Source: Flavobacteriaceae bacterium (GTDB lineage: Bacteria; Bacteroidota; Bacteroidia; Flavobacteriales; Flavobacteriaceae). From it: a stretch of 45,518 bases of DNA. A model generated the notes under the pieces. The model was not told the origin of the DNA. It ran no database searches and saw nothing but the letters and a program-made list of their open reading frames with translations. The stretch covers positions 1 to 45,518 of the forward strand of contig QXYU01000011.1 of NCBI GenBank assembly GCA_009886755.1. The letters are read 5' to 3'. Both the position numbers and the translations under genes were made by a program. The number at the start of each line of letters is the position of its first letter. The stretch's first letter is position 1. Of this stretch, positions 601 through 23,661 are shown piece by piece.

Positions 601-3024
601 TTAACGCAATTGGGCTTTTAATTCTTGCGCAAAACGATCTTGAAGTTTTTTCATAATCTTATCGATTTGCTTGTCTGTAAGGGTTTTGTTTGGGTCTTGA
701 AACGCAAAGCTCACTCCGTATGATTTTTGATTTTCAGGAAGGTTTTTTCCTTCATACACATCAAAAAGCCCCACCTTCTGCAGCAATTTACGCTCTGTTT
801 GGTAAGCCAATTTCTCAATGGCTTGAAAGCTGACCTCTTTGGACACCAAAAGGGCAAAATCACGACGGCTGGTCGGGAATTTAGGAATGGGGGTCAAGGT
901 TAGATTTTTGGAAAATGCATATTTCAAAATCAATTCCCAATCCAAGGTTGCATAGTACACCGTTTTATCAATATTGAATTCCTTGGCAATTTCCGCTTTA
1001 ACAATGCCCATATGTCCAAGGGTTGTTTTCCCGAGTTTCCACTCAACACCCTCTGCAAGGGTAGGATGTTCGGTATATTGGCAATCGGAAACGGACATTC
1101 CCAGGCGTGTCCAAATATTCTCAATAACCCCTTTAAAATAGGAAAAAGGAGAGGGGTGTTCGCTGCTGTCCCAATTTTCGCTGTAGGGATTTCCTACCAA
1201 TGAAAGGGCTGCGTATTTCTTTTCTTCAAAACCTTCTTCGGTAGTGGCATAGGTTTTCCCAATTTCAAAAAACTTGAGATTCTTAGCTTGTCGATTGAGG
1301 TTAAACCCGATGGACTCTAGTGTGGAAAATAAAAGACTGCTTCTCAATTGGGACAGTTCTTGTCCGAGCGGATTCAACAAATGCACCCCTTTAAAGTCTT
1401 TTAGGCTCGCATCCAACGCCTGATAGTTGGGTGAAGTCAGGGAGTTGTTCATGATTTCAGAAAAACCAAAACCAACGAGGGTTTGAGCGAGCTGTTCTTC
1501 AATTTGATGAGGACTGCGCGCGTTATAGGTCGGGAAAGGGGTTTGTAAGGGAGGTGCGGCGGTCACATTGTTGTACCCATAGACACGAAGAATTTCTTCA
1601 ATAACGTCCGAGGGACGGGTCACGTCTACACGATAGGGAGGAATGGACAGTCCCACTCCAGTTTCGGATACAGATTCAATCGTGATATCCAAAGCGTTTA
1701 AAATGGTGTTGAGCGTCTCTTTTGGAATCTTTTGCCCAATGGTAGCATCCAATTGCTCGTAGTGAAGCATTAATTGTTTGGGTTGCGGCTCTGGTTGCGC
1801 CACTTCTACCAGTTCGCTGCTGATGGTTCCTCCGGCCAGTTCTTGAATCAAAAGAGCGGCTCTTTTAAGCGCATACTTGGTAATCAACGGATCAATTCCT
1901 CTTTCGTAGCGGAAGGAGGCATCGGTATTTAACCCGTGTCGTTTGGCTGTTTTACGTATACTAACCGCATCGAAATGGGCGCTTTCCAAAAAGATATGTT
2001 TGGTTTGATTGCTGACTCCTGAGCCTTTTCCTCCAAAAACACCCGCAATGCACAAGGGGGTATTGCCATCACAAATCATAAGGTCTTCGGCATGCAGTTT
2101 TCGCTCTTCCCCATCAAGGGTTACAAAAGAGGTGTCCTGTATAAGGGTCTGTACGACAATATTTCCTTCTATTTTTCCAGCATCAAAAGCGTGGAGCGGT
2201 TGCCCCAAGTCGTGTAGCACGTAATTGGTGATATCAACCACATTGCTTTTGGGTGTTAAGCCAATAGCTTTCAAACGGTTTTGCAACCATTCGGGTGAGG
2301 GAGCGACGGTCAAATCTCGAATCATCAAGCCCAGATAACGAGGAGCTTTGTTGGCATTTTTGACCTCTATTTCTATTGGGTGCGTATTTTGGTCTATGCT
2401 GAAAGCACTAACCTCTGGGGTGGACCAGTCTGATTTAATTTCATTAAGAACACAGGCCGCTCTCAGATCACGAGCCACGCCCATATGACTCATGGCATCG
2501 GCACGGTTGGGGGTCAAACCAATTTCAAAAACGGTGTCATTTTCAATTTCAAAGACCTCATGGCATGGGGTTCCAGGAACCAAATCCGCATCAAGAATCA
2601 TAATGCCTTCATGGCTGGTGCCCAAGCTTAATTCGTCTTCAGCGCAGATCATTCCCTGACTGGCTTCGCCACGAATTTTACTCTTTTTGATTTGGAACGA
2701 ATTTCCTTCGGCATCGTATAAATGCGTTCCTACTGTGGCCACGGGTACTTTTTGACCAGCCGCCACATTGGGCGCACCGCATACAATCGGGAGGGGTTCT
2801 CCAGATCCGATAGCTACGGTAGTAATTTTTAAACGATCTGCATTGGGATGCGGTTCACAAGTGAGCACTTCCCCTACAACAACTCCTTCCAATCCGCCGG
2901 GAACCGAAGAAAACGATGTTGTTCCCTCTACTTCTAAGCCTAAATCGGTGAGCATCTCGGAGATTTGTTCAACAGGGAGTTCTACATTGATGAATTGCCT
3001 AAGCCAGTTGTAAGAAATTTTCAC
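601..3024 (-). CDS. pheT: Phenylalanine--tRNA ligase beta subunit
   Basis: The 807-residue product has the usual length and domain order of bacterial PheT. An EMAP/OB tRNA-binding domain (about 40-155, with EPHPNADRLK and VCGAPN) is followed by B3/B4 and B5 domains, a catalytic-like core domain and a C-terminal FDX-ACB anticodon-binding domain (from about 715, with FPTSRRDFALLV). The partner PheS, which carries the active site of the (alpha-beta)2 enzyme, is not in the window. The start is GTG at 3024-3022 (GTG AAA ATT TCT); no in-frame ATG gives the family N-terminus MKISYNWL. A TATATTTG box lies 47 bp upstream at 3067-3074. The identification is secure. Confidence 0.97.
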   Translation of the reverse strand: MKISYNWLRQFINVELPVEQISEMLTDLGLEVEGTTSFSSVPGGLEGVVVGEVLTCEPHPNADRLKITTVAIGSGEPLPIVCGAPNVAAGQKVPVATVGTHLYDAEGNSFQIKKSKIRGEASQGMICAEDELSLGTSHEGIMILDADLVPGTPCHEVFEIENDTVFEIGLTPNRADAMSHMGVARDLRAACVLNEIKSDWSTPEVSAFSIDQNTHPIEIEVKNANKAPRYLGLMIRDLTVAPSPEWLQNRLKAIGLTPKSNVVDITNYVLHDLGQPLHAFDAGKIEGNIVVQTLIQDTSFVTLDGEERKLHAEDLMICDGNTPLCIAGVFGGKGSGVSNQTKHIFLESAHFDAVSIRKTAKRHGLNTDASFRYERGIDPLITKYALKRAALLIQELAGGTISSELVEVAQPEPQPKQLMLHYEQLDATIGQKIPKETLNTILNALDITIESVSETGVGLSIPPYRVDVTRPSDVIEEILRVYGYNNVTAAPPLQTPFPTYNARSPHQIEEQLAQTLVGFGFSEIMNNSLTSPNYQALDASLKDFKGVHLLNPLGQELSQLRSSLLFSTLESIGFNLNRQAKNLKFFEIGKTYATTEEGFEEKKYAALSLVGNPYSENWDSSEHPSPFSYFKGVIENIWTRLGMSVSDCQYTEHPTLAEGVEWKLGKTTLGHMGIVKAEIAKEFNIDKTVYYATLDWELILKYAFSKNLTLTPIPKFPTSRRDFALLVSKEVSFQAIEKLAYQTERKLLQKVGLFDVYEGKNLPENQKSYGVSFAFQDPNKTLTDKQIDKIMKKLQDRFAQELKAQLR

Positions 3025-3066
3025 AGGTTTTGTATCGTAGCCCCAAGGGGTTGGTTAATATGCTTG

Positions 3067-3074
3067 CAAATATA
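3067..3074 (-). promoter_or_regulatory. Bacteroidota -7 box upstream of pheT
   Basis: Read on the minus strand this is TATATTTG, a full match to the TAnnTTTG consensus, and it lies 42 bases before the GTG of pheT. It abuts the left edge of the AT-rich insert, overlapping the TAACGG arm that starts at 3073. The matching -33 element is not clear. Confidence 0.5.
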
Positions 3075-3252
3075 ACGGAACTGGAGAAAAGACCCGAGAG
3101 TTTTATAGCGAACAATAATTGCGGAGGAGATAAAAAATCATCTACAATTAAAGAAATAGCAGCACCCCCATTTTTTTATAGTGTACGCAGCTTTTTTAGT
3201 ATTTTTAGACAAACAGCACCCAAATCTACTACTTTTCATATACAGACCGTTA
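3073..3252 (+). repeat. Paired inverted arms resembling an integron attC site (tentative)
   Basis: Outer arms TAACGG (3073-3078) and CCGTTA (3247-3252) are exact inverted repeats. Inner arms GAAAAG (3086-3091) and CTTTTC (3232-3237) are also exact inverted repeats, with spacers of 7 and 9 bases. The right end reads GTTAGAC, which fits the attC core GTTRRRY. The layout resembles the R/L box pairs of attC sites, but the 140-base centre has no obvious folding, no integrase is present, and the arms are short enough to occur by chance. Confidence 0.25.
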
Positions 3253-3272
3253 GACACAACTTATCAATACCA

Positions 3273-4419
3273 ATGGAAATCGATAAAAAGTTAAATATAT
3301 TACCATTGACAAAATCAAAACCAAGCACATTGGAATCTCTATTTGGAAAAACTGAAATTGAGCCAATGTGGGTTGCTGATATTGAATTTGAAGTTGCCAA
3401 ATCAATACAAAAAGCTTTAATTCAAAGGGTTTTGAATTCTGGATTCGGTTATGAATATAAACCGGATACGTTTTTTAACGCTTATAAAAAATGGTACCAA
3501 AAGAATTATGAAATTGAATTAAACAAAAATCAAATAATTTTTAGCCCAAGTATTACAACTACTATTTCTACTCTAATAGAAAATTTCACATCTGAAAGTG
3601 ACGGAATAATAATACAACCTCCTGTATTTATGGAATTTAGAGATGTAATACTAAATACAAAGCGGAGAATAATAAAAAATCCTCTGAAATTAGTTGATAA
3701 AAAATATCAAATTGACTTTCAAGATTTAGAGGAGAAAGCAAAATTAGAAAAAAGCAAAGCTCTGATTATTTGCAATCCTCATAATCCAGTTGGAAGAACT
3801 TGAACAAGTTGTAAGAATTTGTAAAGAAAATGATATGCTTCTTATTTCTGATGAAATACATAAAGACATCATACTATTCAACAATAAGTACACTTCTGTT
3901 TTAGATTTCAGAAGCGATTATGAAAAAATTGTTGTTTGTACTTCTGAAGCCAAGACATTTAATCTTTGTGGAATAGCAGATTCGATGGTAATTGTTCATA
4001 ATGAAAGCATTAAAAACTCAATGTCTAATACTTTCAAAAAGTATAATTTGGGGAGAACAAATGCCCTTACTAGGATAGCATTAGAAGCCGCATATAATGA
4101 TGGAAAGTATTGGTTGAATGAAGTATTAAAAACAGTTGAAGAGAATGTTAAAACTATAGAAAGGGAATTAGAAAACTCAAAAATTGAACTTATAAAATTC
4201 GAAGGAACTTATCAAGTATGGTTAGATTTTAGAAAGGTTTTTAATGACACTAAAGAAATGTTTAATCATATAACTGAAAACTCTGGGATTGGACTAAACG
4301 CAGGTCATTGGTTCGGGCGTGAAGGTGCGTTATTTATGAGAATTAATATTGCAACATCTAACGAGAAAGTAACTGATGCCATTAAAAGAATCATAAAAGC
4401 AGTGCCTGAAAAGGTATAA
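3273..4419 (+). pseudogene. Frameshifted MalY/PatB-type PLP C-S lyase (aminotransferase fold I)
   Basis: Two overlapping frames together encode one protein. The first (ATG 3273, MEIDKKLN) carries the family signature EPMWVADIEF and ends in CNPHNPVGRT at a TGA (3801-3803). The second continues at once in another frame with EELEQVVRICKEN, the ISDEIHKDI PLP-contact motif and TSEAKTFNLCG, which holds the Schiff-base lysine, and ends in NAGHWFGREG and MRINIAT. MalY/PatB enzymes cleave C-S bonds of cystathionine or cysteine conjugates. The bases missing at the junction correspond to the W-T-K of GRxWTKEEL; a 17-bp deletion between two copies of GAAGAACTT explains the shift exactly. The coding sequence is visibly more AT-rich than pheT or recG, suggesting transfer. 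The frame upstream of 3273 shows no family similarity and is not part of the gene. Confidence 0.88.
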
Positions 4420-4478
4420 CTGCAATTAAAACCAAACTCAAAAGCCCTATCAAGTAATGCTCATAAGACTTTTACCCC

Positions 4479-6578
4479 CTAACTGATATATTTCCATAAA
4501 GCTTTGTTTTGGGTCAGGGCTTCAAAACTAGCCTTGACACCTTGGTGTTCGGGGAGTTGTAAATGAGGGTCTTTTTCCAAAAGGGCTTCGGCCCAATTTC
4601 GTGATAGGATCAAAACATCTTGGTCTTTTACCAAATTGGCAATATTCAATTGCAAAATCCCACTTTGTTGGGTTCCCATCAGATCACCCGGACCGCGCAA
4701 ACGGAGATCCACTTCGGCAATTTCAAAACCGTCATGGGTGCGTACCATGGTGTCCAGTCGGGTTCTACTTTCTTCGGACAATTTGTAGCCACTCATTAGG
4801 ATGCAAAAACTCTGTGTGTTGCCACGCCCCACACGACCACGCAATTGATGTAGTTGTGACAAGCCAAAGCGTTCGGCACTTTCGATAATCATCACGGAAG
4901 CATTGGGGATATTTACCCCCACTTCAATCACCGTTGTGGCAATCAATATCTGGGTTTGTTTTTTCTGAAAACGCTGCATTTCATATTCCTTGGCATCGGG
5001 CTTCATCCGTCCATGGACAATACTGATTTGGTATTCTGGAGCAGGAAAAGAACGCTGCAAGCTTTCATAACCGTCCATCAAATCTTTATAATCCAATGTT
5101 TCTGATTCCTCAATCAAGGGATACACAACATACACCTGTCTCCCTTTTTTGATCTCTTCCTTAATGAATTGAAACACTTTGAGTCGGTTACTGTCTTTAC
5201 GCCAAACCGTTTTGACAGGCTTTCGCCCGGGGGGTAACTCATCGATGATGGAGACATCCAAATCACCATAGAGACTCATGGCGAGGGTTCGTGGAATGGG
5301 AGTGGCGGTCATCACAAGAACATGGGGCGGTAATTTGTTTTTCTTCCACAATTTGGCGCGTTGCGCTACACCAAAGCGATGCTGCTCGTCTATAATAGCC
5401 AACCCAAGATTGGCAAATTGTACTTTGTCTTCCAATACGGCATGGGTACCTACCAATATATGCAGTTCACCTGTTTGCAGGGCGTCATGCAAGGGGGTAC
5501 GATCTGCTTTTTTGGTTGAACCGGTCAATAAGGCGATGCGTACCTCACTGCCTTCTAGTAGCTCTGAAAGGGAGTGGAAATGTTGTTGCGCCAAGATTTC
5601 TGTTGGAGCCATTAAACAGACCTGAAAACCATTGTCCACCCCAATAAGCATGCTCATCAAAGCGATGATGGTTTTCCCCGATCCTACATCTCCTTGAAGG
5701 AGTCGGTTCATTTGTATGCCGGTTCCTAGGTCTTGCCGAATTTCTTTGAGCACCTTTTTCTGCGCATTGGTCAGAGCAAAAGGCAACGAATGCTTGAAGA
5801 AGGTGTTAAAAATCGTACCGACTTTTTCAAAGACATAACCTTTGATTTGTTGTTGTCGGAGCTGCTTTTTCTTTAGGAGTTGCAATTGGATATAGAACAG
5901 TTCTTCAAACTTGAGTCGAAGCTGTGCGGCACTTAATTGTTGGTGGTTTTCGGGAAAATGTATTGCCCGATAGGCGGTATTTTTATCCGTCAGCCCAATG
6001 GATTGAATCAGATTAGGTGGGAGGGTCTCTGAAAACCCCCCTGATAGGGTATTGTATAATTGCTGCTGTGCTTGTTTGATTACCTTTTGACTAATCCCAC
6101 GTTGGGTGAGTTTTTCCGTGGAGGGATAGATGGGGTGGAGCCCCAAATGGGCATTTTGTTCAAAGTTCTCCACGAGGGTTAATTCCGGATGTGGAATATT
6201 GGCTTTGTTACCATACCAATTTAAGCGGCCAAAAACCACATATTCTTTATTAACCCGTATTTGCTCCTGAATCCATTTTTGACCGCGAAACCATACTAAT
6301 TCGATCTGGCCATTAGAATCCTCTAGCGTAGCCACCAAGCGGCTACCTCTTTTTTGGGCAATGCTTTTAAACTGCGTGACACGTCCTTTGATCTGAATTT
6401 CAGCACTGTTTTTAGGAAGTGCATTTAAGGGATGAAATTGACTTCGATCCACATAGCGATTGGGAAACAAATGCAGTAAATCGTGATAGGTCTGGAGCCC
6501 CAATTCTTCGCGAAGCAATTGGGCGCGATTGGGCCCAATACCCTTTAAATAATCCAGTGCTGTATCCATCCGATTCAT
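4479..6578 (-). CDS. recG: ATP-dependent DNA helicase RecG
   Basis: The 699-residue product matches RecG throughout. An N-terminal helix-hairpin region (YLKGIGPNRAQLL) leads to an OB-fold wedge domain, which binds branched DNA. Then come helicase motif I (GDVGSGKT), Ia (APTEILAQQH), II (DEQHRFG), III (TATPIPRTLAM) and VI (QLRGRVGRG), with the RecG-type tail at LRLRGPGDLMGTQQSG. RecG reverses stalled replication forks and processes Holliday junctions and R-loops. The ATG at 6578 is used; the region to the divergent patatin fragment is 51 bp. The gene ends 59 bp from the broken C-S lyase, which converges on it. The identification is secure. Confidence 0.97.
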   Translation of the reverse strand: MNRMDTALDYLKGIGPNRAQLLREELGLQTYHDLLHLFPNRYVDRSQFHPLNALPKNSAEIQIKGRVTQFKSIAQKRGSRLVATLEDSNGQIELVWFRGQKWIQEQIRVNKEYVVFGRLNWYGNKANIPHPELTLVENFEQNAHLGLHPIYPSTEKLTQRGISQKVIKQAQQQLYNTLSGGFSETLPPNLIQSIGLTDKNTAYRAIHFPENHQQLSAAQLRLKFEELFYIQLQLLKKKQLRQQQIKGYVFEKVGTIFNTFFKHSLPFALTNAQKKVLKEIRQDLGTGIQMNRLLQGDVGSGKTIIALMSMLIGVDNGFQVCLMAPTEILAQQHFHSLSELLEGSEVRIALLTGSTKKADRTPLHDALQTGELHILVGTHAVLEDKVQFANLGLAIIDEQHRFGVAQRAKLWKKNKLPPHVLVMTATPIPRTLAMSLYGDLDVSIIDELPPGRKPVKTVWRKDSNRLKVFQFIKEEIKKGRQVYVVYPLIEESETLDYKDLMDGYESLQRSFPAPEYQISIVHGRMKPDAKEYEMQRFQKKQTQILIATTVIEVGVNIPNASVMIIESAERFGLSQLHQLRGRVGRGNTQSFCILMSGYKLSEESRTRLDTMVRTHDGFEIAEVDLRLRGPGDLMGTQQSGILQLNIANLVKDQDVLILSRNWAEALLEKDPHLQLPEHQGVKASFEALTQNKALWKYIS

Positions 6579-13915: not shown

Positions 13916-14914
13916 ATGCAAGACTTTCAAAAGCTCCTAAAGCAAATTCAAGCGAAAAATTTCGCTCCTTTTTATCTGTTGGCAGGGGTAGAGTCCTATT
14001 TTATCGATCAGCTCGTAGATGCACTTACGGATATAATTGTGGACGAGCAGGCTGCTGCTTTTGATCATACCATCCTTTATGGGAAAGAAACCACGGTTAC
14101 ACAAATCATCGAAACAGCTAAGCGTTTCCCCATGATGGCTGAGCATCAATTGGTAGTGGTAAAAGAGGCGCAGTATATCGATAAAGAATTGGAATCCTTA
14201 GCGAATTACCTAACACAAGCGTCACCTCAAACTGTTTTGGTTTTTTGTTGGAAAAACAAGGCTTTTGACAAACGCAAAAAACTTTATAAGGCAGCTCAAA
14301 AAGCAGGCGTTGTTTTTGACAGCAAACCTCTCTATGACAATCAGGTAGGGCCTTGGCTACGTGCCCATGCAGAACTGTTGCAGCTTAGCCTTACGCCTGA
14401 GTCAGTGGTGGTATTGCAAGATTTTTTGGGTTCGGACCTGCATAGAATTCAAAAAGCTTTAGAAAAGCTCAAGTTTGTTCTCCCCGAAGGCAAAACGGTG
14501 GATCCTGCTGTTATTGAGTATCATATTGGGATCAGTAAGGAGTTCAATAATTTTGAACTTCAAAAATCCGTTGGTCAGAGGAATTTCAGTAAGAGTCTCC
14601 GCATCGTGGACTATTTGGCTCAAAACCAAAAGCAATACCCTTTGGTACTCACCATTAGTAGTTTGTTTTCCTATTTTCAACGGTTGATGCAGTACCACGC
14701 GCTTGATAACAAACAAGAAGCAGCCAATGTGTTGGGAGTATCTCCTTATTTCATTAAAGAATACCAAGAGGCTGCAAGGCATTACAATATGAAAAAATGC
14801 AGTAAAGCGTTGAATTCCATTTATCAAGCAGATCTCAAAAGCAAAGGCGTCGTGGGGAATGCTACTTCTGTTGAAGCCATTTTGAAGCAACTCGTGATTG
14901 AGTTATGGATTTAG
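13916..14914 (+). CDS. holA: DNA polymerase III subunit delta
   Basis: The product from ATG 13916 (MQDFQKLLKQIQ) is 332 residues, usual for HolA; a TTG at 13880 would extend it across the divergent gene's start and is less likely. The order is as in clamp-loader delta: an AAA+-like N-terminal domain (FYLLAGVESYFIDQL, MMAEHQLVVVKEA), a middle domain and a C-terminal collar domain (SSLFSYFQRLMQYHA, LGVSPYFIKEYQEAA, KGVVGNATSVEAILKQLVIEL). It opens the beta clamp in the polymerase III clamp loader. The stop (TAG 14912-14914) overlaps the stop of the convergent E1 gene. Confidence 0.93.
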   Translation: MQDFQKLLKQIQAKNFAPFYLLAGVESYFIDQLVDALTDIIVDEQAAAFDHTILYGKETTVTQIIETAKRFPMMAEHQLVVVKEAQYIDKELESLANYLTQASPQTVLVFCWKNKAFDKRKKLYKAAQKAGVVFDSKPLYDNQVGPWLRAHAELLQLSLTPESVVVLQDFLGSDLHRIQKALEKLKFVLPEGKTVDPAVIEYHIGISKEFNNFELQKSVGQRNFSKSLRIVDYLAQNQKQYPLVLTISSLFSYFQRLMQYHALDNKQEAANVLGVSPYFIKEYQEAARHYNMKKCSKALNSIYQADLKSKGVVGNATSVEAILKQLVIELWI

Positions 14915-17313
14915 TAAAGTTTAGGAAATCGAGTTGGATCACTTTCACTCATCATTTGATAAAGTGCCTCTACAATATCCTCTTTGGAGGGCTTGGAAGC
15001 ATAGTCTCCATCGTTTCCATAGGGAGGGCGATGCTCTTTAGCACTGATTAGGCAGGGGGCACTGTCCAGTGACTGGAAAATATTTTGCTTATCTATTAAT
15101 TGCTGAAGTAAATAGGCAGTAGCACCTCCTGGTACATCTTCATCTACAATGAGCAAGCGATTTGTTTTAGTAACGCTTTTGCCAACACTTCCTTCAATAT
15201 CAAATGGTAAGAGGGATTGCGCATCAATCACTTCTACCGAAATGCCCATGGGGGCTACTTCTTTGGCAGCCGCTTCAAGGATGCGGAAAGTAGATCCATA
15301 GCTTACCGCCGTAATATCAGAACCTTCTTGAACAATTTCAACGGAGCCCAGAGTTATCGTGAAATCTCCTAAGTTAGAGGGACGTTTTTCCTTTAATCGG
15401 TACCCGCTTAAAGGCTCAATAACCAAGGCAGGTTGATTGATTTGCAGCAAGGTATTGTACATAGCTGCGGCTTGAGTGAGGTTTCGGGGTACTAAGAGGT
15501 AAATTCCTCGCATCGAATGGATGAGTGTACCCATAGGGGAGCCAGAGTGCCAAATACCTTCCAGACGATGCCCTCTTGTTCTGATAATTAAAGGAGCTAT
15601 TTGCTGACCTTTAGTGCGATAATTCATAGAAGCTAAATCATCACTTAAGGTGTGCAGTGCATACAGCATATAGTCCAAATACTGAATTTCGGCAATGGGG
15701 CGAAGCCCACGCAGTGCCATTCCAATCCCTTGCCCAATAATAGTTGCTTCACGAATTCCAGCATCAAAAACACGATCCTCACCGTGTTTCTTTTGCAAGC
15801 CTTCAGCACCTTGATTCACGTCGCCAATTTTGCCAACATCCTCTCCAAACAGGAGCAGCCGTTCTTCCTTATCTAAAAGAGCATCAAAGTTATCACGGAG
15901 TACCACTCGACCATCAACCCATTCTTCTTTGGAGGGATAACGGATCGGAACATTCTCCCGTTCAGGAATATTTTCATTGTATAAATGTGTACTGTACCGC
16001 TCGTGTAGGGTTTTATTATTGCTTTCGATCCAGTCAACAAGGGGTTGACGATAGCTGGGAGTCATTTGGCGCAAAACCAGTAGGGCTTTACGAGCAATCT
16101 GCATCAATTCCCGCAAGCCGAAATCTTCCAAGGAAATTAGTTCTTTTTGTAATAAAGCAAAGGCGACATCGTTCTGGGTTGCAGGAGCCAAGTTATCAAA
16201 TACCACCACCAATTCTTTCTTGGAATCAGCCATCAGGCTACAATAATCGTCCCAAGCAAGGCTTTTACCCTCCCGAGTTTCATTGTTAATGGCTTTTTCA
16301 AGTTGCTCGAGTGTTTCTTCAGAAGCAATTCCTTGACTGAGAATCCATTTTTTAAATTGATTGATGCAGTCGTATTTTTTTTCCCAAGCCAGCCGTTTTT
16401 TGGATTTATACCGTTCGTGCGAACCAGAAGTAGAATGGCCTAGCGGCTGAGTCAATTCTTGAATGTGAACCAAAACGGGTAGGTGCTTTTCACGAGCTAA
16501 TTTTTCTGCATGGCTGTATGTCTTCATCAGAGCAGCATAATCCCAACCTTTTACCTGAAGAATCTCAAGACCTGTGGAGGCTCCTTCTTTTTGAAAACCA
16601 GCAAGGGCTTCCGATACACTTCCCTTGGTCATTTGGTCTTTATTGGAAACTGAAATACCATACCCATCATCGTAAACAGATAAGATAGCAGGGACTTGAA
16701 GGACTCCTAAAGCATTTACAGCCTCAAAGAATAAACCTTCTGCAGCACTGGCATTACCAATGGTTCCCCAAGCAATTTCATTTCCATTGGCACTAAACTT
16801 CTCACTATTGGAAATTGCGCGTTCTCGATAAATTTTGGAGGCATGAGCTAAGCCCACCAAGCGTGGCATTTGACCCCCTGTTGGAGAAATGTCTGAGCTG
16901 TGGTTGTTCTGTGCCATGAGATCTAGCCATTCTCCATTTTCATCAATACTACGAGTATTGAAGTGCCCTCCCATTTGACGACCCCCAGACATCGGTTCTT
17001 TTTCCAAACTAGGATGCGCATAGATAGCTGCAAAAAATTGAGCAACATCTAAATATCCTTGCGCCATTAAGAATGTTTGATCTCGGTAGTATCCTGCACG
17101 AAAATCACCTTTTCGGAAAAAGTGATTCATAACGATTTGAGGAAGTTCTTTACCATCTCCAAAAATCCCAAAACTCCCCTTTCCGGTGAGTACTTCTCGG
17201 CGTCCTAAAAGGCTGCAAGAACGGCTAAGAAAGCTTATTCTGTAGTCCAAAAGAACACGTTCTTTATAGGTGTCGAAATTGATTTTTGAAGTAGTAGAAG
17301 TTTCTAAACTCAT
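14911..17313 (-). CDS. Fused E1 (alpha + beta) 2-oxoacid dehydrogenase, long form
   Basis: The start is placed at ATG 17313 (MSLETSTTSK), giving 800 residues. Residues 1 to about 430 are an E1-alpha domain (RAGYYRDQTFLMA, GGRQMGGHF, SPTGGQMPRLVGLAHA, then GNASAAEGLFFEA and DDGYGIS at the thiamine-diphosphate site). From about 455 an E1-beta domain follows (LLFGEDVGKIGDVNQG, DAGIREATIIGQGIGMALRG, GHRLEGIWHSGSP, EDVPGGATAYLLQQL). Such enzymes decarboxylate 2-oxoacids and pass the acyl group to a lipoyl E2; branched-chain oxoacids or pyruvate are possible. No E2 or E3 gene is in the window. A TAAATTTG box lies 6 bp upstream. A second, shorter fused E1 lies at 38268-40244. Confidence 0.9.
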   Translation of the reverse strand: MSLETSTTSKINFDTYKERVLLDYRISFLSRSCSLLGRREVLTGKGSFGIFGDGKELPQIVMNHFFRKGDFRAGYYRDQTFLMAQGYLDVAQFFAAIYAHPSLEKEPMSGGRQMGGHFNTRSIDENGEWLDLMAQNNHSSDISPTGGQMPRLVGLAHASKIYRERAISNSEKFSANGNEIAWGTIGNASAAEGLFFEAVNALGVLQVPAILSVYDDGYGISVSNKDQMTKGSVSEALAGFQKEGASTGLEILQVKGWDYAALMKTYSHAEKLAREKHLPVLVHIQELTQPLGHSTSGSHERYKSKKRLAWEKKYDCINQFKKWILSQGIASEETLEQLEKAINNETREGKSLAWDDYCSLMADSKKELVVVFDNLAPATQNDVAFALLQKELISLEDFGLRELMQIARKALLVLRQMTPSYRQPLVDWIESNNKTLHERYSTHLYNENIPERENVPIRYPSKEEWVDGRVVLRDNFDALLDKEERLLLFGEDVGKIGDVNQGAEGLQKKHGEDRVFDAGIREATIIGQGIGMALRGLRPIAEIQYLDYMLYALHTLSDDLASMNYRTKGQQIAPLIIRTRGHRLEGIWHSGSPMGTLIHSMRGIYLLVPRNLTQAAAMYNTLLQINQPALVIEPLSGYRLKEKRPSNLGDFTITLGSVEIVQEGSDITAVSYGSTFRILEAAAKEVAPMGISVEVIDAQSLLPFDIEGSVGKSVTKTNRLLIVDEDVPGGATAYLLQQLIDKQNIFQSLDSAPCLISAKEHRPPYGNDGDYASKPSKEDIVEALYQMMSESDPTRFPKLY

Positions 17314-17319
17314 GAAGCA

Positions 17320-17327
17320 CAAATTTA
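17320..17327 (-). promoter_or_regulatory. -7 box of the long fused E1 gene
   Basis: The minus strand reads TAAATTTG, a full TAnnTTTG match, ending 6 bases before the ATG. It lies in the 36-bp gap after the M1-like gene, so the E1 gene can be transcribed on its own as well as from upstream. Confidence 0.55.
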
Positions 17328-17349
17328 CAAAAAAAAGCGGTTCTATCGG

Positions 17350-20124
17350 CTAAAACCACTTCCGGGTAAACAAGGTCATTATCTGTTTTGGTTGAATGGT
17401 CAACACTAATCGCAGGTCACGTGCATACGCATTATTATTGAGTTCAAATCCAAAATTGCTATAGACTGGAAAATATACTTCTAGATAATCTGGAACAAGA
17501 TTTAAGCGAATCCCAGTACCCCAATAGCTTTTTAGCGGGTGATGGTAGTTCTTTGCTAAAGTTATGTCTCCATAGACTTCAATCCACTTCCAGAGACTCA
17601 GCATAAGATTGGTGCTTAATAGGTAATCCCCTACATTGGGATCGGTGATGTTGGATTTGAGCCCTCCTTCCGCGAGAATAAACTGCTGGCTGTAGAAGCC
17701 AGTGGTGTCTGAACGTCCGAGGTATTGATATTGATAAAGATAATCGTTGGGGCGTGTCAAACTGAAATCAAAAAAGCCATCATTTTCAACTTTGTTTGAC
17801 AAAAATTTACCAGCAAAAAACCGAGCTTGAAATTGGCGACCACTGGTAAATAGTTTCCGGTAATCAAGGTTAAATCGAATCTTGCTAAACGAATTGGCCA
17901 ATTCCAAACTGCCTCCAAAAGTGAGATGGTTGATGGCGGCCTTATTAGAATAAAGGTGCTCCACTTTAAACACACCGTATTCTGGGGAAGTGTCAACTCC
18001 CGCTGCGATTTCTTTCGAAATACTATACCAAGAAGCACTTAGAACCTGTCGTTTGTTGGAACGAAAGTCTGGGGTTCGGAAGAAGAAAGCAAGTTGGGGG
18101 GCAATAACATTGTATCGAAGACCAGATGCGTAGTGATAACTAGATCCTCCAAGAGCAATTGTGGTGAGGTAATTCTTTCGTTCCAAAGAATTAAATCGGG
18201 CTGAGAGACTGTAACTTCCCACTAGATTTTCTTCCAAAAAAGAATACTGGGGGCGAATGTCTATTTTAAAATTTTGACGTGTAAGTTTTTTATTGTGCAG
18301 ACGCAATCCCAGGGATATTCCGTCATAGGCATTATAATTGTTAATGGGATTAACAAAGAGTTGATTGCGATTGGGAACCTCTATATCTTTAACGAATTTA
18401 AGAGAAAAAGGCTTTTTAAAAAGCTTTGATTGGGTCGATTTCCAGTTGTTTTCTTTGTTCGATTCAGGCAATCCAATAAATGGATTTACAGCTACTTGAT
18501 TTGATTTCCCCTTATCAAAAACCCACAGGCTATCGGGGTGAGGAATCACCCATTTTTCCCGAAGAACCTCTGTGTCTTTCAATAAACTAACTTTTACAGG
18601 AATCAGGCGATTGGTTTTTTCGGTAATTTGAATTTGGATTTGATCTTTTCCAAGTTTCTTTTGTCGCAAACGAAAATCAAGCCCTAATCTTGTGTGGATG
18701 TATTCGTCATAAAACCATTGAATATCAACGGAGTCTTCTTGATGGAAAACAGCTTTAAGAGCTTCGGTGTTATTGCTTTGGGCTAAGTCTTGGAGAATCT
18801 TTCGAAATTCAGGATCCCCCATATAAGATTCTAGATAACGCAATCCAATCCCCACGTGGTAAGGGATCGCAATTCGTTCATTAAAACGCGATAATTTTGA
18901 CTTTTCACTGGCGGCTTCTTGATGTAAATTATTCCGAAGCACGAACTCAGTATAAGTCATGAAGCCATCATTAAAAGGCATTTTAGCGATTCCATAAGTA
19001 CGTAAATAGAAGATATTGGATAATTCTCCCATAAAACGCAGGGAAGGGTAGTAGGTCTCAATATACTTTATCACCAAATAAACGGGCAAGCCCTCTAGCA
19101 ACCACTGATTTTCTCTTTTGGGAAGGGCTAACTGTTGTTGAAAATAGTTTCGAGCAAAGACTTTAACGATTTTAAGTTCGTTAAGTAATGACTTGGAAAA
19201 GGGGCTTAGGAAGGCCGGTAATTGGTTCAAACCATAGAAAGGATGTTTGTTGTAAGCCTCTTTGGTAATTACGAATTGCTTTGAATCATTCAATCCCAGC
19301 TCAGTGTTTAGAAAGCGATATATTTTTTGAAACTGTCGCTGCGATTCTTCGTGCATTTGATCGGGATAATCAATATCAGAAAAGATTCGCACACCATTGT
19401 CCAGTTGGTGATCAAAAAAATCTTCTTTTGTGTTTAGCCAAAAAGAGGGGCAGTCAATGGATCGCCCGCTCCAAAGCGAGTTGTTTTGACGAGGAAGGGC
19501 GCTAACTGCCTGATAGTTTGAAGGCACCTGCAAAGTGATTCGGTACTGGGCGGGTAAATGTTGCTGATCGTCCAAATTCAGATTGCTGATTAACGAATTG
19601 GATTCCGTTTCAGGCCCCGTATAGGTCAATAGCCATTCACGAAGTTGAAAAGAAGCCTCATTTTCATTGAAGCCATAGCCCGAAAAGCGTGCATCGGGCA
19701 AAGTGAGTTGGTAGCGCATCAAAAGATCAATTCCTTTTTCGAGTGCTTCGGTTGGAATAATGAGTCCCAATTGATCTGGGTGCCCTTCTGGTCGAAACCA
19801 TCTTAAAGTATTGTCATTTGCTTTGATCTCAAATATACGCGTAGCCCCCAAGCGATTTTTAACAGCCAAATAGAAACGACGATCAAACTCTTCTGCAAAT
19901 CGATTTGCTAGCGGGGTTTTAGAGCTGCTATAGGCGTGATTCCAGTCATTGAAGTACAAGGTGTCATTTACAAGTAAATGTGGCTCTATATGTACTTTTT
20001 GGTTAACAACGACCTGCTTCTTTTCAATGTTTAAAGCAGCATCAATATTATACGACACTCCAGATTGCGACCATCCCATGGAAATAGAGAAAAGGAAGAA
20101 AAAAATGAGAGGACGTAGCTCCAT
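17350..20124 (-). CDS. M1-peptidase-like outer-membrane protein without the zinc site
   Basis: The 924-residue product begins with a signal peptide (MELRPLIFFFLFSISMGWSQ). Residues 21 to about 480 follow the layout of M1 metallopeptidases: a beta-rich N-terminal domain (EASFQLREWLLTYTGPE), a helical domain with WLLEGLPVYL (341-350) and a later QWFYDEYIHTRLGLDF. In M1 enzymes the Glu of this WxxEG motif is the third zinc ligand and HEXXH precedes it by 18 residues; that place (321-325) reads KVFAR, so the zinc site is lost. From about 590 to the end, alternating aromatic strands (DYLEVYFPVYSNFGFELN, DLRLVLTIQP) ending in Phe suggest an outer-membrane barrel. It starts 2 bp after the LOG gene. 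Enzyme activity is unlikely; a binding or transport role is possible. Confidence 0.75.
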   Translation of the reverse strand: MELRPLIFFFLFSISMGWSQSGVSYNIDAALNIEKKQVVVNQKVHIEPHLLVNDTLYFNDWNHAYSSSKTPLANRFAEEFDRRFYLAVKNRLGATRIFEIKANDNTLRWFRPEGHPDQLGLIIPTEALEKGIDLLMRYQLTLPDARFSGYGFNENEASFQLREWLLTYTGPETESNSLISNLNLDDQQHLPAQYRITLQVPSNYQAVSALPRQNNSLWSGRSIDCPSFWLNTKEDFFDHQLDNGVRIFSDIDYPDQMHEESQRQFQKIYRFLNTELGLNDSKQFVITKEAYNKHPFYGLNQLPAFLSPFSKSLLNELKIVKVFARNYFQQQLALPKRENQWLLEGLPVYLVIKYIETYYPSLRFMGELSNIFYLRTYGIAKMPFNDGFMTYTEFVLRNNLHQEAASEKSKLSRFNERIAIPYHVGIGLRYLESYMGDPEFRKILQDLAQSNNTEALKAVFHQEDSVDIQWFYDEYIHTRLGLDFRLRQKKLGKDQIQIQITEKTNRLIPVKVSLLKDTEVLREKWVIPHPDSLWVFDKGKSNQVAVNPFIGLPESNKENNWKSTQSKLFKKPFSLKFVKDIEVPNRNQLFVNPINNYNAYDGISLGLRLHNKKLTRQNFKIDIRPQYSFLEENLVGSYSLSARFNSLERKNYLTTIALGGSSYHYASGLRYNVIAPQLAFFFRTPDFRSNKRQVLSASWYSISKEIAAGVDTSPEYGVFKVEHLYSNKAAINHLTFGGSLELANSFSKIRFNLDYRKLFTSGRQFQARFFAGKFLSNKVENDGFFDFSLTRPNDYLYQYQYLGRSDTTGFYSQQFILAEGGLKSNITDPNVGDYLLSTNLMLSLWKWIEVYGDITLAKNYHHPLKSYWGTGIRLNLVPDYLEVYFPVYSNFGFELNNNAYARDLRLVLTIQPKQIMTLFTRKWF

Positions 20125-20126
20125 TA

Positions 20127-20816
20127 TTAAAAGTTAGGACGAAAACTGCCTTTTACATGGAATTTGTCAAGTGCAAGCAGTACTTCCTCTGGTGTTTCGA
20201 CAATTTGGATCAAATTTAAGTCTTCTGGGCTGATATTCTTTTCCTTTAACAACTGCTTTTTAATCCAATCCAATAAACCGCCCCAATAACTTTTACCGAC
20301 GAGTATGATCGGGAAGGCTTTGATTTTTTCTGTTTGGATGAGGGTTAAGGCTTCAAACAGTTCGTCCAAGGTACCTAAGCCTCCCGGCATGACCACAAAC
20401 CCTTGAGCGTATTTAACAAACATCACTTTCCGAACAAAAAAATACTCGAAGTTGATCACTTTGTCGGTGTCGATGTAAGGGTTGCTGGTTTGCTCAAAAG
20501 GCAAGTTGATATTAAGTCCGACCGATATGCCATTGGCCTGTTGCGCCCCAAGATTGGCCGCTTCCATTACCCCAGGTCCACCGCCAGAGATGACTCCATA
20601 ACCGTGTTTTGAAATGGCATAGGCGATATCACGAGTTAAGGCGTAGGTAGGGTGATTCACTGGAGTTCGCGCCGATCCAAAAATGGAAACACAAGGCCCA
20701 ATAGCACCTAAACGTTCGTAGCCTTCTACAAACTCACTCATGATTTTAAACAAGGCCCAGGAATCATTTGCTTTAACAGCGCTCCAGTTTTTTTGGGGGT
20801 TTTGGTTGGATGGCAT
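20127..20816 (-). CDS. LOG-family (TIGR00730) nucleotide 5'-monophosphate phosphoribohydrolase-like protein
   Basis: The start is placed at ATG 20816 (MPSNQNPQKNW), one base after the uvrA stop; an ATG at 20837 lies inside uvrA. The 229-residue product has a Rossmann fold with SIFGSARTP, ISGGGPGVMEAANLGA and the family hallmark PGGLGTLDELFEAL (PGGxGTxxE). Members cleave the N-glycosidic bond of nucleoside monophosphates (cytokinin-activating in plants; in bacteria often AMP or other purine nucleotides). The tight spacing with uvrA and the M1-like gene indicates one operon, though no shared function is evident. Confidence 0.9.
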   Translation of the reverse strand: MPSNQNPQKNWSAVKANDSWALFKIMSEFVEGYERLGAIGPCVSIFGSARTPVNHPTYALTRDIAYAISKHGYGVISGGGPGVMEAANLGAQQANGISVGLNINLPFEQTSNPYIDTDKVINFEYFFVRKVMFVKYAQGFVVMPGGLGTLDELFEALTLIQTEKIKAFPIILVGKSYWGGLLDWIKKQLLKEKNISPEDLNLIQIVETPEEVLLALDKFHVKGSFRPNF

Positions 20817-20817
20817 C

Positions 20818-23661
20818 TTATGTGGTTTGGTGTTCAAATTCTTTAGCGAGATATTCCGCTGTATAACTATTTTTAAGCTGAATCAATTCTTCGGGTGTGC
20901 CTTGACCGATGAGCTCTCCACCTCCTTTTCCACCTTCAGGACCGATGTCAATGACATAATCCACTTGTTTGATAACATCAAGGTTGTGTTCAATAATCAA
21001 AACGGTATTGCCCTTGTCAACCAAACGATTGAGCATTTCCATAAGCACACGGATATCTTCAAAATGAAGCCCTGTGGTGGGTTCATCTAAAATGTAAATG
21101 GTATTACCCGTATCGCGTTTGGAGAGTTCTGAGGCCAATTTGATCCGCTGTGCCTCCCCTCCGGATAGGGTAGTAGAGGACTGACCAAGAGCTACATATC
21201 CCAATCCTACCTCTTGTATGGTTTTTAGTTTTTTATAAATCTTGGGAATGGGTTCAAAAAAAGCAACGGATTCATTTATTGTCATTTCCAATACATCGGC
21301 AATGGACTTTCCACGATATCGAATCTCTAGCGTTTCTCGATTGAAACGTTTGCCCTGACAATCTTCACATTCGATATACACATCGGGAAGGAAGTTCATT
21401 TCAATGACCCGCATACCACCGCCTTGACAGGTTTCGCAACGCCCTCCTTTGACATTAAAGCTAAAACGCCCAGGCTTATATCCTCGAATTTGTGCTTCAG
21501 GGGTTTTGGTAAATAAGGTTCTAATTTCACTAAATACCCCAGTATAGGTCGCTGGATTACTTCTGGGAGTTCGCCCAATAGGGCTTTGATTGATATCAAC
21601 CACTTTATCCAAATGTTGTAATCCTGAAATGGAATCATAGTCCAAAGGTTCTTTGACACCATTGAAGTAATGAGCATTTAGGATCGGATAGAGTGTTTCA
21701 TTAATCAATGTGGATTTACCACTGCCCGAAACACCCGTTACTCCTATCATTTTTCCAAGAGGGAGGTCTACCGTGACAGCCTTTAGGTTATTTCCCCGGC
21801 AGCCTTTGAGGGTAATCTTTTTACCGTTGCCTTTACGACGTTTTTTGGGAATGGGAATTTGCTTTTGATGCGTCAGATAGGCAGCGGTGAGTGTGTCTAG
21901 GTTGCTAAGTTCCTGGGGTGGTCCTTCGGAGATGATTTCACCACCGTTTTTCCCAGCATAGGGCCCCATGTCAATAACATGATCGGAGCGCAAGATCATA
22001 TCTTTATCGTGTTCCACAACGATAACCGAATTGCCTAAGTCTCGAAGCGACTCTAGGGATTCGATCAAGCGTTGATTGTCTCTTTGGTGAAGACCAATAC
22101 TAGGCTCATCAAGTATGTAGAGAACTCCTACCAACTGAGAGCCAATTTGCGTAGCCAAGCGAATACGTTGGGCTTCGCCACCCGAAAGCGAACGAGAAGA
22201 GCGATTGATTGTCAAATAGTTGAGCCCTACATCCAAAAGAAAACGCGTTCGGGTTTTAAGTTCTTTAAGCAGCTCGGAGGCTATTATATTTTCGTTGTCG
22301 GATAGCTTGGCTGGGAGCGTGTCAAACCATTCAAATAGATCGACAAGATCCATATCAGATAAATCCCCAATGTTTTGTTCGTCGATTTTAAAGTATTGTG
22401 CTTCTTTTTTTAACCGATTACCTCGGCAAGAGGAACAGCTTTTTTCGTCCATAAAAGCATGCGCCCAGCGCTTTATTCCAGTGGATTCACTATTGCGGTA
22501 TTGGTATTGAATAAAGTTTTCTATGCCTTCGTAATCAATTTTATAATCCCGGGTAATACCCAAGGATTTGGAGGGTATGGCAAATTTTTCCTTGCCGCCT
22601 TTAAGGATGATTTGAAGGGCCGGTCCTGGAATTTTAGAGATCGGATCGTTGAGTGAAAAATCATAACATTTTGCAATAACATCCATTTGCTTGAAGGCCC
22701 AATTGCTTTTGCGTTCTCCTAGCGGTGCAATGCCACCATTGTTGATGGATACGGAGCGGTCTGGGATGATTTTATCTGGATTGAGGACTTGCTGAACTCC
22801 AAGACCTTTACAATCTGGGCACATACCCTTGGGGGAGTTAAAGGAAAAAGTGTTGGGCTCGGGCTTGGGATAGGAAATGCCCGACTCGGGGCACATTAGG
22901 TTACGACTAAAATAGCGTTGCTTATCCGAGTCAAGGTCAATAATCAAAAGGGTATCCTCTCCAAATTCCATGGCTGTAGCCACCGAATCTTCCAAACGTT
23001 TTTCAATATTGGCTGTGGCTTCCATTTTGATCCGATCCACAACCAATTCAATATCGTGGGTCTTGTAGCGATCAACTTTCATTCCTGGGGTCAAGTTGAC
23101 TATCTGACCATCCACACGAGCACGAATAAAGCCTTGTTTGATTAGGTTTTCAAACAGTTCACGATAATGTCCTTTTCGGGATTTCACAATAGGAGCTAGA
23201 AGGGCGATCTTCTTGCCTTCAAACTCTTTTTGAATCAAGGAAAGGATTTGAGCGTCTGTATAGCTAACCATTTTTTTTTGGGTGGTGTAGCTATAGGCGG
23301 TTCCAATTCGGGCATATAAAAGCCTGAGGTAATCGTAGAGTTCTGTGATGGTTCCTACAGTAGAACGAGGACTGCGTGAAGTTGTTTTTTGTTCAATGGC
23401 GATGACAGGGGAAAGTCCGTCTATTTTGTCAACATCCGGTCGTTCTAGATTCCCTAAAAACTGGCGTACATAAGCGGAAAACGTCTCCATATAGCGCCGT
23501 TGCCCTTCTGCATAGATGGTTTCAAAAGCTAACGAAGACTTGCCACTTCCCGATAACCCCGTGATTACCACGAGCTTTTCGCGCGGAATGGCTACGTCTA
23601 TGTTTTTCAGATTGTGAACCCGAGCTCCCTTTACTTCAATTAAATCCTTTTCCTCATTCAT
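20818..23661 (-). CDS. uvrA: Excinuclease ABC subunit A
   Basis: The 947-residue product is full-length UvrA, the damage-recognition ATPase of nucleotide-excision repair. Both ATP sites are present: Walker [11 protein letters not shown] (35-44) and [11 protein letters not shown], signature [12 protein letters not shown] and [12 protein letters not shown], and Walker [14 protein letters not shown] and [13 protein letters not shown]. The second zinc module (CETCQGGG ... CEDCQGKRF) is intact. The first keeps only three of four cysteines: C257, C281 and C284, with Ser at 260 (CPES where many families have CPxC). I believe this is seen in other Bacteroidota UvrA proteins, from memory. It leads a minus-strand operon with the LOG and M1-like genes. 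Confidence 0.97.

Follow-up and report, generated by a model that had tools for sequence, protein, structure and literature searches.

What might a peptidase fold do once it has lost its zinc site and is joined to an outer-membrane barrel? This question is raised by P0001, a gene encoded in a 45,518-nucleotide stretch (the window) that comprises positions 1 to 45,518 of contig QXYU01000011.1 from a Flavobacteriaceae bacterium (assembly GCA_009886755.1). The gene is real, and a first-pass annotation of the window had read its product as a zinc-less M1 peptidase scaffold fused to an outer-membrane barrel and exposed there as a binding or docking module. The explanation that we prefer as a whole, that a zinc-less M1 domain docks substrates on the periplasmic side of an Omp85-like barrel, is held tentatively, at somewhat less than an even chance.

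The structure predicted for full-length P0001 has a predicted local distance difference test score (pLDDT) of 75 and a predicted template modeling score (pTM) of 0.75, and the M1 fold is present in this model. When the model is compared with the PDB by VIA, all 50 of the matches listed belong to the M1 family by title, the best one at Z 20.6 with 442 aligned residues, a root-mean-square deviation (rmsd) of 3.8 and a model range of 22-618. With Foldseek, 49 of the 50 matches listed are M1-family proteins, with expectation values (E) down to 4.1e-17, and the remaining one is an M61 peptidase. P0001 alone matches neither the Pfam M1 model PF01433 nor any NCBIfam model, and family searches with it in Pfam, NCBIfam and PDB sequences gave nothing usable. 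A sequence route that is independent of the predicted model leads through L087, a gene of genome G062: residues 318-918 of P0001 match L087 (E 1.1e-63), and L087, which holds HEIGHNW...E, matches PF01433 above the cut-off (E 2.6e-14), so that M1 kinship is reached by this path as well. Among the relatives scanned, PF01433 scores above its cut-off in 8/8 that keep HEXXH and in 0/2 zinc-less ones, of which L088 comes near (19.0 of 27.7 bits).

Of the catalytic residues of M1, Glu344 alone remains in P0001. The HEXXH zinc motif is absent and KVFAR (residues 321-325) stands in its place, 18 residues lying between Arg325 and the Glu344 of WLLEG (341-345). The same holds in the window's family (f1), for which we count 138 f1-type rows, made up of 58 of the 96 aligned rows plus 80 named loci and not equal to 138 independent genomes: His321 and Glu322 each occur in 0/138, and position 321 is Lys in 130. 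A Glu at the third-ligand position is thus present in P0001 at the expected distance of 18 residues, but Asp occupies position 344 in 102 f1-type rows (Glu in 15, Gly in 13), and because of this, the alignment indicates that Glu344 need not be a retained ligand. The GXMEN-type motif, which we take to be the exopeptidase motif of M1, is absent too, since P0001 reads YGLNQLP with Gln301; column 301 is Glu in 24/24 HEXXH rows, whereas f1-type rows have Gln in 109/138 and Glu in 6/138. The presumed catalytic position, aligned to column 421, is Tyr in 24/24 HEXXH rows versus Lys in 74/138 and Pro in 29/138 f1-type rows, and P0001 itself has Pro421. The first-pass annotation had put KVFAR at the place of HEXXH and an M1 scaffold near residues 250-480, and both readings hold, the latter through the predicted model, the structure comparison and the chain via L087. 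Its remark that WLLEG is kept is correct for P0001 but describes a local feature, as the prevalence of Asp344 makes clear.

The C-terminal segment 560-924, predicted with 44 diverse rows, gives a model with pLDDT 88.4, pTM 0.84 and 16 strands (587-908), and in this model, the 16-strand barrel fold of Omp85 proteins is present. Foldseek finds 93 PDB matches at E<=0.001, the best 50 of which are all Omp85 proteins, and among the matches listed by VIA, 50/50 are Omp85 proteins at Z 18.7-15.5, led by Deinococcus BamA (Z 18.7, 275 residues, rmsd 4.0). Residues 29-350 of the barrel model match BamA 423-807 (8bnz_A); as the last predicted strand matches the end of BamA, residues 910-924 of P0001 form an extra tail, in which Arg921 and Trp923 occur in 99% of f1-type rows. 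The largest loop of the barrel, 56 residues between strands 11 and 12, lies at the place of Omp85 loop L6, and its motif DYLF..GRS..SQQ...GG.K can be made out in the majority of the 29 rows displayed. The barrel after residue 590 and the fusion that the first-pass annotation had proposed are thus borne out in the predicted model, the fusion in sequence as well; its view of the C-terminal third as barrel strands ending in Phe stands for the barrel and for the final residue, but Phe924 lies about 15 residues past the last strand of the model. The barrel also gives a weak match to DUF5686 (PF18939), a family label without assigned function, at E 7e-4, which is below cut-off, in 2/44 rows; DUF5686 occurs elsewhere in the window's genome (G000:C44), and the open-access literature searched contains no paper that names it. 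PF01103 is also found in two proteins of the same genome, which we take to be BamA and TamL.

Relatives of P0001 were found in 75/99 genomes searched, including 56/60 of the window's family; with this one-protein query, the genomes G001, G019, G026 and G058 of that family gave no match. In a profile search of a phylum sample, 228/395 genomes match, many of them in frames of about 600-700 residues that resemble barrel-less M1 peptidases, and 40 longer regions were taken from this sample for reading. Two M1 matches over cut-off are present in the window's genome, and no relative of P0001 was found in viral contigs. One genome of the window's family, G052, has two near-full-length matches to P0001 (C19:499783-502560 and C11:7554-10346). 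HEXXH followed 18 residues later by Glu is kept in 24/96 aligned rows (24/176 with the named loci added), all of them outside f1 in other families of Bacteroidota, so the alignment with homologs envisaged in the first-pass annotation does find forms that keep the motif. Six catalytic columns are invariant in these 24 rows (His321, Glu322, His325, Glu344, the Glu of GMEYP, and Tyr421), and the barrel part of the profile is matched by 21 of them, in L063 in two pieces of which one is weak; the barrel match is weak or short in three HEXXH rows of family f27. The 96 rows exclude the twice-fetched genes L031, L032, L040, and L055 and keep L099, which repeats L015; among the named loci, some may repeat genomes, and in a few the title is just Bacteroidetes or seems to be wrong (L177). 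Alignments used 57/96 rows for the tree, 20/30 for A1 (the others began at an internal Met) and 44/96 for A2, and the zinc motif was read on full frames.

In an unrooted tree of 57 rows, 32 rows from the window's order, all without the zinc site, lie on one side of a branch with 98 support in the Shimodaira-Hasegawa-like approximate likelihood ratio test; the tree was built by a quick method with columns 319-347 excluded and carries a long branch (L094) and many composition warnings. Two changes of state at the same site are counted on it in all, the second being L080. Since HEXXH is the rule in M1 peptidases, we infer that the direction of change was a loss of the zinc site. L087, the HEXXH row that adjoins the split, has the E1 dehydrogenase gene of the window directly downstream and a PspC-type gene directly upstream, and this common gene order indicates that zinc and zinc-less forms are one orthologous gene. 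At the level of sequence comparison, the fusion, the loss of catalytic residues, the clustering of that loss and the retention of the protein are firm. Two loci carry a barrel-less M1 copy beside the fusion. At L080, the barrel copy reads HAMGC and the neighboring barrel-less copy (3448-5166) keeps HEVGH, which looks like an independent repeat of the loss; at L072, both the fusion and the barrel-less copy (2012-3583) keep HEXXH.

How the lost site was replaced can be read from conservation. Near-invariant positions in the 138 f1-type rows include Asn385 (136), Lys321 (130), Arg397 (130), Tyr422 (128), and Tyr297 (128), and Gln402 and Asn415 behave likewise. Lys321 is paired with an acid at position 344 in 115/138 rows (Lys-Asp 100, Lys-Glu 15), and the catalytic-like domain shows equal conservation with and without the zinc site, its mean top frequency being 0.567 in zinc-less f1-type rows and 0.531 in HEXXH rows. 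This suggests at most that the pocket may have been fixed anew after the zinc had been lost, and the amine of Lys may stand in for the metal. By domain, the mean top frequency in f1-type rows is 0.618 in the barrel, 0.567 in the catalytic-like part and 0.50 in the N-terminal domain, and the window shares with L002 72, 64, and 51% identity, respectively, in these domains; the rate of synonymous substitution (dS) is undefined in 11/12 pairwise comparisons, and the values for L002 and L101 are identical, probably because both represent one genome. Judged by these alignments, the protein as a whole is under constraint and not decaying. That the domain is what remains of an active peptidase in decay, for which one could cite the lost catalytic residues and an N-terminal domain among the fastest diverging parts, is extremely improbable in view of its presence in nearly all genomes of the family searched, including genomes below 2 Mb, of the conserved gene order and of conserved positions in every domain.

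On which side of the membrane the M1 domain lies is suggested by the barrel. An even number of strands (16) leaves both barrel ends on one side, which in Omp85 proteins is the periplasm, and in characterized Omp85 proteins the POTRA domains are periplasmic, as is the patatin domain of PlpD (PMC11116518). Because of the even strand count, the resemblance to Omp85 and the precedent of PlpD, the M1 domain is probably periplasmic and not exposed at the surface. The first-pass annotation had envisaged a domain displayed on the barrel. A domain of this kind would be carried out through or around the barrel in the manner of an autotransporter and would bind external peptides. Such a surface module would agree with the putative signal peptide and the barrel, which place the protein in the outer membrane, and PlpD itself was once proposed to be autotransporter-like and surface-delivered (PMC11116518). 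We regard it as quite improbable, since it runs against the features just named and since the loop between strands 11 and 12 lies at the place of L6, which in BamA enters the barrel lumen (PMC12611786). The idea of binding or docking as such remains plausible.

According to the explanation that we prefer, P0001 would be an outer-membrane protein in which an M1 peptidase-like domain precedes a 16-strand barrel of Omp85-like type; the M1 domain would take the place of the Omp85 POTRA domains and face the periplasm. It would descend from an active fusion of zinc peptidase and barrel that persists in other Bacteroidota. Loss of the zinc site would date back to the common ancestor of a large clade within the window's order, and in the Flavobacteriaceae a Lys/acid pair has mostly taken its place. 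In the periplasm, the zinc-less M1 domain would most likely bind polypeptide in an unfolded or extended state, such as segments of outer-membrane proteins or lipoproteins, and the bound polypeptide would be handed to the barrel or held at it; P0001 would then assist in assembling the outer membrane or in its quality control. The active relatives with HEXXH would work as peptidases in the periplasm, anchored at a barrel of the same Omp85-like type. Binding and function of the M1 domain are what we infer from fold, conservation and precedent. Outside the Flavobacteriaceae, a PspC/Toast-rack gene stands directly upstream of the fusion in L087 (935-2578), L090 (806-2575), L095 (4486-6231), and L094 (5347-6924), where L090 and L095 are HEXXH rows of one genus and the zinc-less L094 is assigned by similarity to the others. 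PspC belongs to envelope stress, and this neighbor suggests a link to envelope homeostasis.

Several observations weigh against this explanation. In the predicted model, residues 484-586 are strands without helices, and hence no POTRA is predicted in P0001. The VRGF/Y motif of L6 is absent, as the 56-residue loop reads LGRS and contains neither RGF nor RGY; Foldseek TM-scores by query are 0.38-0.49 for the barrel; PF01103 is matched by 0/44 barrel rows at E<=1, and a search of PDB sequences with the barrel profile finds no relative. Comparison of the barrel by HHalign with 23 BamA/TamL-like PF01103 proteins gives a probability of 1.6%, close to the 1.0% for 19 TonB barrels as a control, and values of 0.2, 7.8, and 6.9% with 5 barrel-only PF01103, 3 long PF01103, and 16 DUF5686 proteins, respectively, in a test that is weak because its own controls are mixed (98% for barrel-only but only 7.3% for the 3 long PF01103 proteins, each against the BamA/TamL-like set) and in which the set names BamA, TamL, and 'Metallo' are guesses by length. 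Since POTRA, the RGF/RGY motif and a PF01103 match are all lacking and the profile comparison stays at noise level, we describe the barrel as Omp85-like without counting it among the Omp85 members; its kinship rests on the predicted fold and is not apparent in sequence profiles. As to the pocket, 40 positions are newly conserved (at least 92% of f1-type and <25% of HEXXH rows); the catalytic-like domain (251-480) contains 12 of them, where about 10 are expected from length, and the barrel 14; a share so close to that of length leaves a specially rebuilt pocket unsupported, and the pocket replacements vary across zinc-less families outside f1. With the one-protein query, there is no match in G026, a 99% complete genome of f1, nor in families f8, f9, f10, f15, and f16. 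A PspC neighbor is seen in 4/180 loci scanned, many of which have short flanks, in the window's genome the PspC gene lies at another place, and the neighbors of P0001 in the window (uvrA, a LOG-type gene, and the E1 dehydrogenase gene) are not envelope genes.

Some of these points would fit better with a protein whose real function lies in the barrel, for example in the movement of lipids, and whose M1 domain binds no substrate but serves as a spacer in the structure or, as a scaffold, holds a partner close to the barrel. This agrees with the findings that, by both measures given above, conservation is highest in the barrel and that newly conserved positions are no denser in the catalytic-like domain. 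However, a mere spacer hardly accounts for the near-invariant columns in and around the lost site (Tyr297, Lys321, Asn385, and Tyr422), and we consider this reading unlikely on balance. The same pocket might also harbor another enzymatic activity, with Lys, acid and Tyr as its active site, for which the Lys321-acid344 pair and the near-invariant Asn385, Gln402, and Asn415 could speak. Its site residues vary across the other zinc-less families, though, and we know of no enzyme with a Lys/acid/Tyr arrangement on an M1 fold, a point on which no search was made; such an activity seems at least as improbable as display at the surface.

Soluble M1 aminopeptidases (PepN, ERAP1, LTA4H, and Thermoplasma F3) are zinc peptidases that resemble P0001 in the fold of residues 22-618, but none of the 50 matches listed is titled as a barrel protein. 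The patatin-Omp85 proteins of the PlpD type (Pseudomonas aeruginosa) likewise have an enzyme-fold domain N-terminal to a 16-strand Omp85 barrel and in the periplasm; they differ by a POTRA and a phospholipase domain where P0001 has a zinc-less M1 fold and no predicted POTRA, and the same source defines Omp85 proteins by at least one POTRA domain (PMC11116518). For Heinz and Lithgow (2014), the barrel is the defining feature, and among their ten Omp85 subfamilies, 'Metallo' (PF00149) and 'noNterm' are included, which are comparable to P0001 in having an Omp85 barrel whose N-terminal domain is unusual or missing; no M1 subfamily is found there, and neither 'peptidase' nor 'PF01433' appears in the main text (PMC4104836). 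A docking or holding role is likened to that of yeast Tma108 because this M1 homolog is proposed to bind polypeptide in its pocket. Tma108 differs in that it works at the ribosome, where it binds nascent chains, retains every active-site residue except one and has no barrel, and it is the sole M1 example named in the accessible text of a review of inactive metallopeptidases (PMC11266112). The active HEXXH relatives have a model in BepA (M48), a metallopeptidase of the periplasm that is associated with an Omp85 machine, the β-barrel assembly machinery (BAM); BepA, however, is a separate and active protein of another family (PMC13067283). That the machinery of Bacteroidota is different was demonstrated only recently, and BamP, BamM, BamG, and BamH of F. 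johnsoniae are, like P0001, Bacteroidota-type additions to an Omp85 machine; in the text available, none of them is described with a peptidase fold (PMC12611786). An identity of P0001 with BamP or BamM was considered and rejected, as those are periplasmic and metal-ion-containing by name, and the word 'peptidase' is absent from that text (PMC12611786) and likewise from a second paper on the BAM of Bacteroidota.

In the window (14911-23661), uvrA, the LOG-type gene, P0001 and the fused E1 dehydrogenase gene lie on one strand, uvrA and the LOG gene overlapping, and this order is similar in many loci of Flavobacteriaceae. The LOG gene ends within about 0.6 kb upstream in 45/66 named loci, and the E1 dehydrogenase gene starts within about 0.9 kb downstream in 56/66. 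The features of P0001 and its immediate neighbors are collected in Table 1.

Table 1. Positions in the window of the features of P0001 and of the adjacent genes.
Feature	Position	Strand	Basis or remark
M1-like/Omp85-like fusion gene (P0001), whole	17350..20124	minus	924 aa, ATG start, final residue Phe
Putative Sec signal peptide, residues 1-20	20065..20124	minus	Hydrophobic, without lipobox Cys; read from sequence, no predictor run
M1 N-terminal beta domain, residues 22-250	19375..20061	minus	Predicted model; VIA range 22-618 against M1 aminopeptidases
M1 catalytic-like helical domain without zinc site, residues 251-480	18685..19374	minus	Predicted model, structure comparison, alignment
YGLNQLP at place of GGMEYP (exopeptidase Glu replaced), residues 297-303	19216..19236	minus	Alignment
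KVFAR at place of HEXXH, residues 321-325	19150..19164	minus	Sequence and alignment
WLLEG holding third zinc-ligand position Glu344, residues 341-345	19090..19104	minus	Sequence and alignment
All-beta Ig-like domain, residues 484-546	18487..18675	minus	Secondary structure of model
16-strand Omp85-like barrel, residues 587-908	17401..18366	minus	Model (pLDDT 88, pTM 0.84) and PDB matches
Long conserved loop, strands 11-12 (Omp85 L6 place), residues 778-833	17626..17793	minus	Model and alignment
Conserved C-terminal tail ending LFTRKWF, residues 910-924	17353..17397	minus	BamA comparison and conservation
LOG-type 'lysine decarboxylase' gene, 2 bp upstream of P0001	20127..20837	minus	PF03641; start codon mechanically listed
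Fused E1 alpha/beta dehydrogenase, 27 bp downstream of P0001	14911..17322	minus	Conserved neighbor

No description of an M1-Omp85 protein was found in the open-access literature searched. The far-reaching proposal that P0001 represents an undescribed Omp85-like machine of Bacteroidota, with a peptidase fold replacing POTRA, which was converted once in the Flavobacteriaceae and their neighbors from a protease at the barrel to a substrate receptor that does not cut, is one that we consider rather unlikely as it stands. Bacteria depend on Omp85 proteins to assemble and preserve their outer membranes. An Omp85-like protein that is conserved and carries a peptidase domain would add a new component to the Bacteroidota envelope. 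As the zinc site splits the lineages cleanly, whether such a protein acts by cutting or by binding alone becomes testable, and if the proposal is true, a pseudoenzyme conversion would have taken place inside the outer-membrane assembly apparatus.

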